Of a stretch of DNA of 64,000 nt, positions 56,256-63,312 are shown in pieces. Under the pieces are notes generated by a model. It searched no databases and was not told where the DNA came from. It worked only from the letters and a program-made list of their open reading frames with translations. A program made the translations under genes and the position numbers. The stretch's first letter is position 1. Every line of letters starts with the position of its first letter. Source of the stretch: Reyranella massiliensis 521 (GTDB taxonomy: Bacteria > Pseudomonadota > Alphaproteobacteria > Reyranellales > Reyranellaceae); the NCBI RefSeq assembly GCF_000312425.1, contig NZ_HE997181.1, positions 3,439,044-3,503,043 on the forward strand. Reading direction: 5' to 3'.

Positions 56256-57239
56256 GTGACATCGACGAAATCTCTTCGCCGCCGATCGATACTTGGCGCG
56301 GCACTTGTGGCTCCGGCACTCGTTCACGCGCAGACGGGCCTGCCCGATCGAGCGCTGCGCATCATCATCGGCTTCGCGGCAGGCGGTGGCTCAGACGTCA
56401 TGGCCCGTCTCATCGCCGCCGCACTCGAGCGGCGCGTCGGACGCAGGATCACCGTCGAGAATCGTCCGGGAGGTACGGGGGCTGCCGCCGGCGAAGCGCT
56501 GAAGATTGGCGGTACCGACGGCAGCATGGTCGCCTTCATGCCGAGCCCTTCGCTGATCGCGAAGCTCTTCGTGCCGACTTATCCAATCGATCCGCTAACC
56601 GACCTGGCGCCGATCACGATCGCCGGCACTTTCGTCGAAGCCTTCGCCGTCTCGCCCAAGGTCGACGTTTCGACCGTGGCGGAATATGTCGAATGGCTGA
56701 AGGCCGGCGAGCCGGGACGCAACAAGGTCGGCACCACGGCAACCGATGCCATGTTGCAGTACTACACGCGCCTGCTCAGCCGCGAGTTCGGCGTGCCGAT
56801 GGAAGGCCAGGCCTTTCGCGGAACCGCGCCGCTGGTAGCCGACATGGAGGCCGGCAAGGTGCCAGCAGGTGTCGCCGGACTCACCTCCTTCCTCGTCGCG
56901 CATCGCGGCAACCGCCTGCGCATCCTTGCCACCTCCGGTTCCAAGAGAGTTTCGGTGGCGCCCGACCTGCCGACCGCGGCGGAGGCCGGCTATCCGGGTC
57001 TGACGATGGAGGAGTGGTATGGCTTCTTCGCCGCCGCCAACACGCCGCCGCCTCTGGTCGATGCCTGGAATCAGGCCCTCACCGCCGTGCTGAAGGACAA
57101 GGAAGTCATCGAGCGGCTCTCCCAGTTGGGCCTCGAGGTGGAGACCTCCACGCCGGCCGCCTGCGGCGAGCGGCTCGCCGCCCATATGAAGAAGTGGCAG
57201 GCGACCTTGCAGGGGCTCGGTCTGAGGCCGACGCTGTAA
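56256..57239 (+). CDS. Bug-family (TctC) periplasmic receptor
   Basis: 327 residues from a GTG; the exact start is uncertain, with GTG at 56253 and TTG at 56217 also in frame. A twin-arginine-like LRRRSILGAALVAPALVHAQ signal is followed by RALRIIIGFAAGGGSDVMAR and VENRPGGTGAAAGEAL, both Bug hallmarks, and LPTAAEAGYPG. Orphan receptor. The next gene begins 29 bases later. Confidence 0.85.
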   Translation: MTSTKSLRRRSILGAALVAPALVHAQTGLPDRALRIIIGFAAGGGSDVMARLIAAALERRVGRRITVENRPGGTGAAAGEALKIGGTDGSMVAFMPSPSLIAKLFVPTYPIDPLTDLAPITIAGTFVEAFAVSPKVDVSTVAEYVEWLKAGEPGRNKVGTTATDAMLQYYTRLLSREFGVPMEGQAFRGTAPLVADMEAGKVPAGVAGLTSFLVAHRGNRLRILATSGSKRVSVAPDLPTAAEAGYPGLTMEEWYGFFAAANTPPPLVDAWNQALTAVLKDKEVIERLSQLGLEVETSTPAACGERLAAHMKKWQATLQGLGLRPTL

Positions 57240-57268
57240 GCGCATAGATGCCGGAAGGGGAATCAGGG

Positions 57269-57652
57269 ATGTTCAGCCACGTCACCATCGGCAGCAACGA
57301 TCTCGCGAAGGCGAAATCTTTCTACGACGAGCTGCTGAAGCCGCTCGGCCTGGTGCGTCATCTCGAGTTCCCGACGGCGGTCGGGTATGGCCGTCCCGGT
57401 GGCCGGCCGCAGCTCTGGGTGCTGAACCCGCTCGACGAGAAGGCGGCCACGGTCGGCAATGGCGTCACCATCGGTCTTGAAGCCGACAACCGTGGCAGCG
57501 TAGACGCGGCCTACAAGGCCGCCATGAACGCCGGGGCGAAAGACGAAGGCGCGCCGGGTCTGCGGCCGCACTATCATCCCGACTACTATGGCGCCTATGT
57601 GCGCGACCTCGACGGCAACAAGATCTGCGTCGTCTGCCACAAGAAACCCTGA
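57269..57652 (+). CDS. VOC family protein (glyoxalase/bleomycin-resistance fold)
   Basis: 127 residues from the ATG at 57269, chosen over 57248 because homology begins at MFSHVTIGSNDLAKAKSFYD and AGGGG lies upstream. His4 and a C-terminal Glu/Asp-Gly-Asn region (YVRDLDGNKI) would form the metal site. Substrate unknown. Its stop lies 14 bases before the start of the glutaredoxin-DinB gene, which has its ribosome-binding site in that gap. Confidence 0.83.
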   Translation: MFSHVTIGSNDLAKAKSFYDELLKPLGLVRHLEFPTAVGYGRPGGRPQLWVLNPLDEKAATVGNGVTIGLEADNRGSVDAAYKAAMNAGAKDEGAPGLRPHYHPDYYGAYVRDLDGNKICVVCHKKP

Positions 57653-57666
57653 GCAGGAGAGCAAGC

Positions 57667-58419
57667 ATGACGGAGCCACTGAAGGTCTTCTGGCAGCCCG
57701 GTTGAACGAGCTGTCTGAGACTCAAGGAGTTTCTATCGGTCCGTGGGATCGACTTCGTTTCAGTAAATGTACTCGAGGATCCGGCCGGCCTGGCTGAGCT
57801 GCAGGCGCTCGGCGTGCGATCCGTGCCGGTGCTGTCGCGCGGCAAGGACTTCGTGTTCGGCCAGAGCCTGCCGCAGATCGTGGCCTTCCTCGGGCTTGCC
57901 GAGAAGGCAGGCCCCGCCCTCTCGGCGGACGAACTCAGCCGGCGCCTCGACAAGTTCATGAGCGCGGCCCTCGCGCTGTTGCCGCTGATGCCGGCGGAGC
58001 GCCTGCACATCCATGTGCCCGGCCGGCCGCGCAGCTACCGCGCGCTGGCCTTCCATCTGTTCAAGGTGGTCGATGCCTTCCTCGACGCCGAGCAAGGCAT
58101 CACACTGGTCCAGGCGATGTTCCGGGAGGAGCCGGCACCCGATGCCGGGCACGGGGCGCTCGTCGACTACGGCGCGTCCATACGAGGTCGCTTCCGCGCC
58201 TGGCGTGCGGATGGCGACACCGATCCGTCCCGATCGCTTGCCACCTACTATGGCGCGCAAAGCCTGCATGAATTGCTCGAACGGACGACCTGGCACTCGG
58301 GCCAGCACGTTCGGCAATGGATGATGTTGCTGGAGCGCGAGGGCGTGTCGTTCCAGCGCCCGCTCGGCGATGCCGATTTCGCCCGTCTGCCAATGCCGGC
58401 CAACGTCTGGGACGGCTGA
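57667..58419 (+). CDS. Putative selenoprotein: glutaredoxin domain (UTSC) fused to DinB-like domain
   Basis: 250 residues if TGA at 57703-57705 is read as selenocysteine 13. The ATG at 57667 has AGGAGA 7 bases upstream. Residues 5-78 form a glutaredoxin: VFWQPG-U-TSC in place of WQPGCTSC, then LRLKEFL, and the cis-Pro segment VRSVPVLSR. Residues 95-245 form a DinB-like four-helix fold with His pairs (AFHLFKVVDAF and WHSGQHVRQW), as in thiol-dependent metalloenzymes. The frame stays open and conserved-looking after the TGA, with no further lesion. If TGA is a stop, the gene is a nonsense-mutated pseudogene and only a shorter DinB protein could start at a later GTG. The cysteine-to-Sec place and hairpin favour selenocysteine. 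Confidence 0.65.
57717..57733 (+). promoter_or_regulatory. Candidate bacterial SECIS hairpin
   Basis: GAGACTC (57717-57723) pairs with GAGTTTC (57727-57733) in seven base pairs, one of them G-U, around the loop AAG. The loop begins 19 bases after the TGA, inside the range described for bacterial SECIS elements. The stem is formed by AGA, TTT and CTA codons, which look out of place in this GC-rich gene set. The loop lacks a G in its first two positions, so it is not a textbook match. Confidence 0.5.
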
Positions 58420-60320: not shown

Positions 60321-61313
60321 ATGACCAAGAGACTGATTACCCGCCGCACTTCGCTGTGGCTGGCCGGCGCCGCCGCAGCAGCCCCGCTCGCCTCGGTGCG
60401 TGCACAGCAAACCGGCCTGCCCGACAAGCCGCTCAAGATCCTGGTCGGCTTTCCGGCCGGCGGCGGCACCGACGTGATGGCGCGCTTCCTGGCCGAGCCC
60501 CTGAAGCAGCGTACCGGCCGCAATGTCCTGATCGAAAACAAGGCGGGAGCTTCCGGCACGATCGCCATCGAGACTCTGAAGAACTCTCCACCCGACGGCA
60601 CGACGATCGCCTATGTGCCGAGCGCCACGATCATCCAGAAGATCACCATGCCGGGCGTTACCTGGGATCCCGTGACCGACCTCGCGCCGGTCGCCCAGGC
60701 GGGCACGGTGCAGACGGCGTTCTGTGTCTCGCCGACCATCGGCGCAAACAATCTCAAGGAGTATATCGCCTGGCTGAAGAAGAACCCCGACCGGCACAGT
60801 TTCGGCACGACGGCACTGGGTTCTTCGACGCATTTCTTCGGCGTAATGGCGGGCAGGGAAATCGGCATCCCGCTCGAGCCGGTGCCCTATCGCGGCGCGG
60901 CGCCGCTGGTTGCCGATCTGCAGGGTGGCCATATCGCGGCCGGCTGCGGCGGCATCACCGACTTCCTGGAGCATCACCGTGCCGGCAAGGTGAAGGTGAT
61001 CTTCACTTCAGGCGTGAAGCCCACGACGTCGGCGCCGGACATCCCCACCATCAGCCAGCTCGGCTATCCGCAGCTCGCATCGCTCGGCTGGTACGTTTTC
61101 TTTGCTCCCGCCAAGACGCCCAAGCCGTTGCTCGATGCCTGGGGCAAGGAGCTGAACGCAGTGCTGGCCCAGCCCGAAGTACAGAAGAAGCTCGTCGAAC
61201 TGGGCCTCGACGTGGAACCGGCAACTCCGGCAGAATTCACCGCGCGCCTGGTGAAGGACCTCGGCGACTGGAAGAGGACCGTCGACTCGATCGGCTACAA
61301 GCCACAGGGTTGA
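60321..61313 (+). CDS. Bug-family (TctC) periplasmic receptor
   Basis: 330 residues. Twin-arginine-like signal TRRTSLWLAGAAAAAPLASVRA, then PLKILVGFPAGGGTDVMARF, ENKAGASGTIAIE and IPTISQLGYPQ, all family hallmarks. AGGAG is 10 bases before the ATG. Another orphan receptor for a carboxylate-like ligand. It is about as close to the receptor at 56256 in its motifs as to the one at 38331. The hydrolase gene follows after 19 bases. Confidence 0.9.
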   Translation: MTKRLITRRTSLWLAGAAAAAPLASVRAQQTGLPDKPLKILVGFPAGGGTDVMARFLAEPLKQRTGRNVLIENKAGASGTIAIETLKNSPPDGTTIAYVPSATIIQKITMPGVTWDPVTDLAPVAQAGTVQTAFCVSPTIGANNLKEYIAWLKKNPDRHSFGTTALGSSTHFFGVMAGREIGIPLEPVPYRGAAPLVADLQGGHIAAGCGGITDFLEHHRAGKVKVIFTSGVKPTTSAPDIPTISQLGYPQLASLGWYVFFAPAKTPKPLLDAWGKELNAVLAQPEVQKKLVELGLDVEPATPAEFTARLVKDLGDWKRTVDSIGYKPQG

Positions 61314-62451: not shown

Positions 62452-62826
62452 CTAGAGCGGCAACTTCGATTCCAGCAACCACCTGCGGGCCTCGTGGATG
62501 CTGCGGAAGACCTCGACCGGCCGTTCGTCGGAGGTCATCGACATGAAGAGTCGCGCCAGCTCGCCGCGCTTGTGATCGGCGACAATGGCGAGCGGCCCGC
62601 GCGGCCTCAGGACCGGCGTCGTGCGAAGCCGTTCGGCAATCGCCGACAACTCGTCCTTCCCGATGCTTGACGTCGCCGAGGTGATGTCGATGATCTTGCG
62701 GTAATGCAGGACACCGGCAGAAATCATCTCCTGCACGAAGCCCACGAGGTCGGTGGCGGAGATATCGCCGCGTGCGACCCCCACGACGATCCGATCGGGC
62801 GCAAATATGTCGAGCTTGAACGGCAT
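62452..62826 (-). CDS. SpoIIAA-like (STAS-type) protein, paralogue 1
   Basis: 124 residues from ATG 62826. A beta-alpha fold with MISAGVLHYRKIIDITSATSSI and a C-terminal VEVFRSIHEARRWL. The same plan occurs in the gene at 62932-63312, so the two arose by duplication. Such SpoIIAA-like/STAS proteins bind membranes or partner proteins; function not known. The pair is convergent with the DUF4189 gene. Confidence 0.7.
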   Translation of the reverse strand: MPFKLDIFAPDRIVVGVARGDISATDLVGFVQEMISAGVLHYRKIIDITSATSSIGKDELSAIAERLRTTPVLRPRGPLAIVADHKRGELARLFMSMTSDERPVEVFRSIHEARRWLLESKLPL

Positions 62827-62931
62827 GACCCGCAACTTGATGCCAGCGAAGGATCTCGATCCCTACGCTACATCGGCGCTGCTGGATCGTGCGACGACTT
62901 ACCGTTGCAGTACCGGCGCAATTAGGTCGCC

Positions 62932-63312
62932 CTAGAGAGCTCCCACCGATTGCTGCTCCAGCCACTTCCGCGCCTCGTGCAGGCTGTGGAATACCTTCAC
63001 GGGCCGCTCGCCTTCCGTCAGCGCGGCGAACTTCACGGCGTTGTCGGCCGCTCTCCCGGGGCCGACCAAGAAGGCAACCGGACCTCGCGATGCCGCGTTG
63101 GGCTGGGATCGCATGAAAACGGCGGTTCTTTCGACATCTTCGTCGCTCATCGGCGACGACGGTGAGGAAATGTCGATGAGCTTGCGGTAGTGCATTGCAC
63201 CGCTCGTCAACATCTGGCCTATCGCCTCGGAGATATCCTCGCCGGTAACCTCGCCACGGACCACAATGATAGCCAGGCGGGCGGGGTGGAAGAAATCGAT
63301 GTGGATAGGCAT
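62932..63312 (-). CDS. SpoIIAA-like (STAS-type) protein, paralogue 2
   Basis: 126 residues; shares GAMHYRKLIDISSPSSPMS and VKVFHSLHEARKWLEQ with paralogue 1, about a third identical by eye. Upstream gene of the pair, 105 bases before paralogue 1. No partner kinase or channel is next to it. Confidence 0.7.
   Translation of the reverse strand: MPIHIDFFHPARLAIIVVRGEVTGEDISEAIGQMLTSGAMHYRKLIDISSPSSPMSDEDVERTAVFMRSQPNAASRGPVAFLVGPGRAADNAVKFAALTEGERPVKVFHSLHEARKWLEQQSVGAL

Follow-up and report, generated by a model that had tools for sequence, protein, structure and literature searches.

A conserved, apparently uncatalogued glutaredoxin-DinB fusion with an in-frame UGA is a predicted selenoprotein of Reyranella and other Alphaproteobacteria

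Introduction

Why should a gene that opens with a well-placed ribosome-binding site and an ATG carry a stop codon at position 13, precisely where a catalytic cysteine is expected, and then continue uninterrupted to an apparently normal end? This question is raised by a locus in the 64,000-nucleotide stretch of DNA analyzed here (the window), which belongs to a soil and water alphaproteobacterium, a relative of Reyranella. A sequence-only reading had proposed that the TGA, lying on the first cysteine codon of a glutaredoxin CxxC motif, encodes selenocysteine (Sec), that its placement is unlikely to be random, and that the glutaredoxin is fused to a DinB-like domain.

A review of May 2026 distinguishes 119 prokaryotic selenoprotein families and subfamilies, including Sec-glutaredoxin and UXX-star (PMC13188914). 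The bacterial SECIS model given there consists of a hairpin 3' of the UGA with a loop of 3-9 nt, a G in the first two loop positions, a spacing of 16-37 nt and a minimum free energy of -7.5 kcal/mol or lower (PMC13188914). According to earlier work, Alphaproteobacteria use Sec primarily in formate dehydrogenase (PMC8124441).

Results

The first 12 codons of the fusion gene (MTEPLKVFWQPG) are followed directly by the TGA and by codons for TSC, and 237 further sense codons lead to the terminal TGA at 58417-58419; the Shine-Dalgarno sequence, the start codon, the placement of the TGA and the length of the open frame are thus exactly as had been claimed (Table 1). A standard list of open reading frames begins the gene only at GTG 57814, and such ORF calling therefore truncates it and yields annotations from which the catalytic site is lost.

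Table 1. Positions of the features discussed in the text (window coordinates unless stated otherwise).
Feature	Position	Strand	Remarks
VOC/glyoxalase-family gene, upstream	57248..57652	+	PF00903; ends 14 nt 5' of ATG
Shine-Dalgarno AGGAG	57655..57659	+	7 nt upstream of ATG 57667 (sequence)
Predicted Sec-glutaredoxin-DinB fusion gene	57667..58419	+	250 codons + stop; codon 13 = TGA (predicted Sec)
Glutaredoxin domain, residues 5-75	57679..57891	+	PF00462; model strands/helices; PDB 3zit and 7c10
In-frame TGA, codon 13, first Cys position of CxxC (U13-T-S-C16)	57703..57705	+
H1 hairpin GAGACUC-AAG-GAGUUUC, between UGA and H2	57717..57733	+	near clade only; synonymous freeze
H2 hairpin UCGGUC-CGUGG-GAUCGA, proposed SECIS core	57736..57752	+	apical GU about 37 nt past UGA
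DinB/YfiT-type helical-bundle domain, residues 87-224	57925..58338	+	DinB_2 in 13/15 members; Foldseek 6iz2, 1rxq
His130, first residue of DinB metal triad (putative)	58054..58056	+	invariant 100/100
His210-x3-His214, remaining two triad residues (putative)	58294..58308	+	invariant 100/100
Formate dehydrogenase alpha-subunit gene fdhG	L083:15683-18787 = genome C1:3427682-3430786	minus	in-frame TGA = Sec202

Homologues were collected by scanning contigs from one genome per species, which gave 74 homologous loci, and by searching 385 genomes of Alphaproteobacteria with a profile, which found the fusion family in 32; a phylum-wide draw consisted of genomes of one class only, the same as that of the host. 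Over both sets, 101 loci span codon 13, a few of them representing the same genome reached twice. This codon is TGA in 63 loci and a cysteine codon in 38 (24 TGC and 14 TGT), and there is no other stop in any of the TGA genes, nor any stop in the Cys genes. Since one of the six search patterns required Cys at codon 13, any bias in these counts would be against TGA. Nor are the TGA genes close copies of one another, as 19 of the 63 TGA homologues fall below 72% identity, the lowest being 43%. They occur in Reyranella, Enhydrobacter, Vineibacter, Desertibaculum, an Acetobacteraceae MAG and other alphaproteobacteria, while the Cys genes come chiefly from Burkholderiales, with further alphaproteobacteria among them (some of the MAG names are doubtful). 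The gene thus shows what is expected of a bacterial selenoprotein gene, namely UGA at a redox residue for which homologues, here the more distant ones, have Cys. A tree computed with codons 13-31 left out implies no fewer than three switches between TGA and Cys, its deep forks being weak; from the hairpin common to the TGA genes (see below), the Sec form of the fusion may have arisen once.

The machinery for decoding UGA as Sec is complete in the host, whose genome is a single contig of 5.79 Mb (97% complete). On this contig, which also carries the fusion gene, we found selA (556 bits), selB (455 bits), selD (288 bits) and selC, the tRNA-Sec with anticodon TCA (75 bits); selA, selB and selC cluster together near the formate dehydrogenase gene fdhG. 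The latter has an in-frame TGA in the context ARI-U-HGPTVAS, the known Sec position, and is broken into two by ordinary ORF calling. Together, the machinery and the TGA of fdhG make it almost certain that UGA is decoded as Sec in one or more host genes besides the fusion, and imply that one machinery would serve both genes, although the two enzymes are unrelated.

The distribution of SelB across genomes points in the same direction. SelB scored above the family cut-off in all 22 TGA genomes as opposed to 13 of 27 Cys genomes (Fisher 5e-5, ignoring relatedness), and in the class-wide draw, where 54 of the 385 genomes have SelB, it was found in 18 of 19 TGA genomes versus 3 of 13 Cys-only genomes (Fisher 4e-5, again ignoring relatedness). 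The sole exception is a TGA genome represented by a 77%-complete MAG with neither selB nor selC above cut-off.

We then ask what could direct Sec insertion at this codon. A short hairpin, H2, located at +31 to +47 relative to the UGA, has all six of its pairs in 63 of 63 TGA genes and in none of the 38 Cys genes, which retain at most four. It is the sole helix that RNAalifold predicts, unprompted, from all TGA sequences; two of its pairs have changed on both sides (UA to CG and UA to GC), and in 24 diverse sequences 100% of cells are paired, compared with 8-58% in slid controls. The apex reads CGUG[GCA], its CGUG being invariant in TGA genes, and G followed by U occupies the first loop positions, in agreement with the SECIS model for bacteria given above. 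In a 7-bp form, H2 satisfies that model with a GUG loop at 37 nt and -7.5 kcal/mol, with energy and spacing both at the limit, the latter at the upper bound of 16-37 nt; in the 6-bp form common to all genes, the loop is CGUGN with G second. We therefore propose, from these sequence comparisons, that H2 is a SECIS-like element and the SECIS core of the gene. The single-sequence fold is not unusually stable (z -0.93). A scan of the fusion locus against Rfam gave no SECIS family, and the Rfam SECIS_1 model matched neither the host genome nor any control. Searching the whole genome for H2-like hairpins returned two exact pattern matches, the fusion gene and another with a broken pair. The SECIS of fdhG is built differently, with the loop AGUCUU at 18 nt instead of CGUGN at about 37 nt.

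A second hairpin, H1, has seven of seven pairs in 50 of the 63 TGA loci and gives the best fold in the near clade. It was considered as the SECIS and rejected, because it is not conserved in the distant TGA homologues, where its register is broken while H2 stays perfect. By filling the spacer in near relatives, H1 may perhaps bring H2 closer to the UGA.

In the TGA group alone, synonymous sites just 3' of the TGA hardly vary. In this group, synonymous difference is 0.11 over codons 17-24 and 0.17 over codons 25-32, against 0.2-0.5 elsewhere in the gene, whereas the Cys group reaches 0.53 and 0.36 over the same codons. Codon by codon, 45 TGA genes show little or no synonymous change at codons 15 and 17-30, bar a few codons, and 27 Cys genes vary there. 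The codons used here (AGA, TTT, CTA and CGT) are unusual in a genome rich in GC, and the Sec group retains S-x-R-x-[IV] at codons 24-28.

Profiles and a confident structure model (AlphaFold, mean pLDDT 90) bear out the two domains that had been recognized from the sequence alone. Residues 6-59 match the glutaredoxin family PF00462 (E=3e-10; 40.5 bits against a cut-off of 22.9), which together with the UxxC motif U13-T-S-C16 places the N-terminal domain among the Sec-glutaredoxins. Across the family, the motif W-Q-P-G-[UC]-[TS]-S-C and Pro54 show little or no variation. Among solved structures, the first matches of the sequence profile are the glutaredoxins 7c10/7c12, and Foldseek aligns the modeled N-terminus with glutaredoxin-like proteins (3zit and 7c10, TM 0.87-0.88 by target length). 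The C-terminal bundle resembles the DinB/YfiT proteins 6iz2 and 1rxq, the top Foldseek hits (probability 1.00); for the window protein alone the DinB_2 profile PF12867 stays below cut-off (E=0.012), but it matches 13 of 15 family members, the best at 1e-10. The invariant histidines correspond in pattern to the three-His site of BstA (H67/H160/H164), as judged from the alignment.

The gene context tells us less. A VOC/glyoxalase-family gene lies upstream in most Reyranella-group loci and is probably cotranscribed with the fusion gene, which in Reyranella is preceded by genes for a luciferase-like monooxygenase, a TctC solute receptor and the VOC protein, with an alpha/beta hydrolase also among its neighbors. 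Synteny is kept in Reyranella and lost outside it, so that the context yields no firm substrate, and synteny was dropped as a guide to one. In a TGA relative (L044) the gene adjoins a DsbA-family protein, and the Cys homologues of Roseomonas and Caballeronia are flanked by isochorismatase-family and amidase genes, a possible clue to the substrate. Taken as a whole, these contexts suggest that organic compounds are broken down or detoxified with glutathione, and a glutathione synthetase gene is present in the host genome.

Several further observations concern the surroundings. Two TctC/Bug solute receptors flank the fusion gene in the window (56262-57236 and 60321-61310); in Reyranella relatives such receptors are conserved close to the gene, and several of the Cys homologues from Burkholderiales have TctC-like genes nearby. 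On Roseomonas marmotae plasmid p1318-3 (L137:1815-4882) the homologue comes after an oligopeptide-type ABC transporter and sits between isochorismatase-family and AtzG-like/amidase genes, and the Caballeronia homologue (L061) is likewise flanked by isochorismatase and amidase genes. Further along the window, two adjacent minus-strand genes (62452-62835 and 62932-63312) encode similar proteins of 126-127 aa, of which the one scanned had no Pfam match.

Discussion

The Sec machinery, the conserved TGA, the covarying hairpin and the co-occurrence with SelB all strongly support the selenocysteine reading, and on these comparative grounds we hold with very great confidence that UGA codon 13 would be decoded as Sec. 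That the product is a 250-residue selenoprotein with glutaredoxin and DinB domains is, by the same kind of evidence, highly probable. To a standard gene caller, which starts the frame at GTG 57814, a stop at codon 13 simply means a broken gene, and the TGA could then have arisen by nonsense mutation or be a TGC misread in sequencing. However, the same TGA recurs in 62 other loci from independent assemblies, with no other stop and no frameshift among these relatives, and synonymous sites are frozen next to it beside a covarying hairpin; the homologue survey thus refutes a pseudogene or sequencing error, whose probability we consider negligible. A Sec codon so close to the start would also make expression dependent on selenium, and one can perceive the UGA chiefly as a regulatory switch, in which translation stops after 12 codons when selenium is low and it is this dependence, not Sec chemistry, that is selected. 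Yet the codon falls exactly on the catalytic cysteine, with Cys in relatives, as chemistry predicts and regulation does not, making the switch very improbable.

What the protein does is a far more tentative matter. We infer a sequence of events that runs from Sec insertion in translation through metal and thiol binding to the reaction itself. Directed by H2, which lies within the coding sequence 31-47 nt 3' of the UGA, Sec-tRNA(Sec) and SelB would insert selenocysteine at codon 13. The product would be a U-T-S-C glutaredoxin joined to a domain of DinB/YfiT type, in which three histidines form a putative metal site. The DinB domain would bind a divalent metal and activate a low-molecular-weight thiol, here glutathione, for transfer to an electrophilic substrate; the sulphur linkage or mixed disulphide so formed would then be attacked by the glutaredoxin selenolate, which together with Cys16 would release the reduced product, and glutathione would recycle the enzyme. 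To our knowledge, cooperation between a DinB protein and a fused redoxin is without precedent, and the two-step reaction is thus a proposal; such a role in both transfer and reduction is a plausible reading that may well prove wrong. It is in keeping with what is known of DinB-superfamily S-transferases, which have three conserved His and are metal-dependent (PMC5815605), and which have members in bacteria that produce glutathione, bacillithiol or mycothiol (PMC4360819).

Two other functions deserve consideration, both of which we regard as less likely but still live rivals. Mycothiol-dependent maleylpyruvate isomerase (MDMPI) is among the matches to the DinB fold (2nsf) and an MDMPI_N match occurs in one family member, so the protein could be a glutathione-dependent cis-trans isomerase of ring-cleavage products whose glutaredoxin domain presents glutathione and does not reduce; the monooxygenase, TctC receptors, VOC protein and hydrolase of Reyranella, and the isochorismatase-family and amidase genes around Cys homologues, would fit such a pathway. 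These neighbors vary by lineage, however, and isomerization has no need of the conserved UxxC/CxxC pair. That pair, set in its invariant or nearly invariant motif with Pro54, would suit a general Sec-glutaredoxin, acting in deglutathionylation or as electron donor to a partner enzyme while DinB serves only substrate binding or metal sensing, and known Sec-glutaredoxins do reduce disulphides with GSH (PMC13188914). The DinB His triad, invariant in 100 of 100 sequences, argues instead that this domain is catalytic or makes use of a metal.

How does the fusion relate to known systems? It shares Sec at the first CxxC position with Sec-glutaredoxins (PF00462, UxxC; PMC13188914 Table 1), but these are described as small oxidoreductases, whereas the fusion adds a C-terminal DinB domain, is found in Alphaproteobacteria and has its own hairpin type. 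With DinB/YfiT (S-transferase-like, STL) proteins such as B. subtilis YfiT/BstA (1rxq) and D. radiodurans DR0053 (6iz2) it shares the fold, the His...His-x3-His pattern of BstA and, in most family members, the DinB_2 profile of the superfamily; it differs in its N-terminal (seleno)glutaredoxin and in sequence (about 17% identity), and is a putative thiol transferase. The UXX-star and HUGP/GUXX-star selenoproteins (NF041212, NF041211, NF045501) also have a glutaredoxin-like domain with Sec, one of them being a fusion, but our protein scores far below their curated cut-offs (28.8 vs 66, 17.6 vs 100 and 13.2 vs 325 bits) and thus falls outside these families; no other NCBIfam model (June 2026) places it above cut-off either. 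The 119-family catalogue contains neither a DinB protein nor a DinB fusion (PMC13188914), and open-access full text, as distinct from subscription papers, preprints and supplements, held nothing relevant on DinB together with selenoprotein or selenocysteine. The fusion may have been listed before, for example among the unnamed candidates of the groundwater MAG survey that PMC13188914 cites. Apparently, then, it is a conserved, uncatalogued predicted selenium enzyme. In its fullest form our proposal, which we hold with less than even confidence, is of a new selenoprotein family in which a metal-dependent DinB glutathione transferase is coupled to a Sec-glutaredoxin that cleaves the conjugate reductively, present in about one third of sampled Sec-decoding alphaproteobacterial genomes and using a SECIS whose CGUGN apex and spacing of about 37 nt set it apart from that of their formate dehydrogenase.

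If correct, the assignment would add a further selenoprotein for 18 of the 54 SelB-bearing alphaproteobacterial genomes sampled. It would also show clearly how a single SelB reads two SECIS hairpins of different build, and how a SECIS constrains the sequence of the protein (codons 24-28 in the Sec group). Cultured hosts of the family, such as Reyranella and Vineibacter, make it testable. One genome of the class-wide draw (G306) carries both a TGA copy and a stop-free copy of the gene (L104; G306:C25:5259-6002), a natural Sec/Cys pair.
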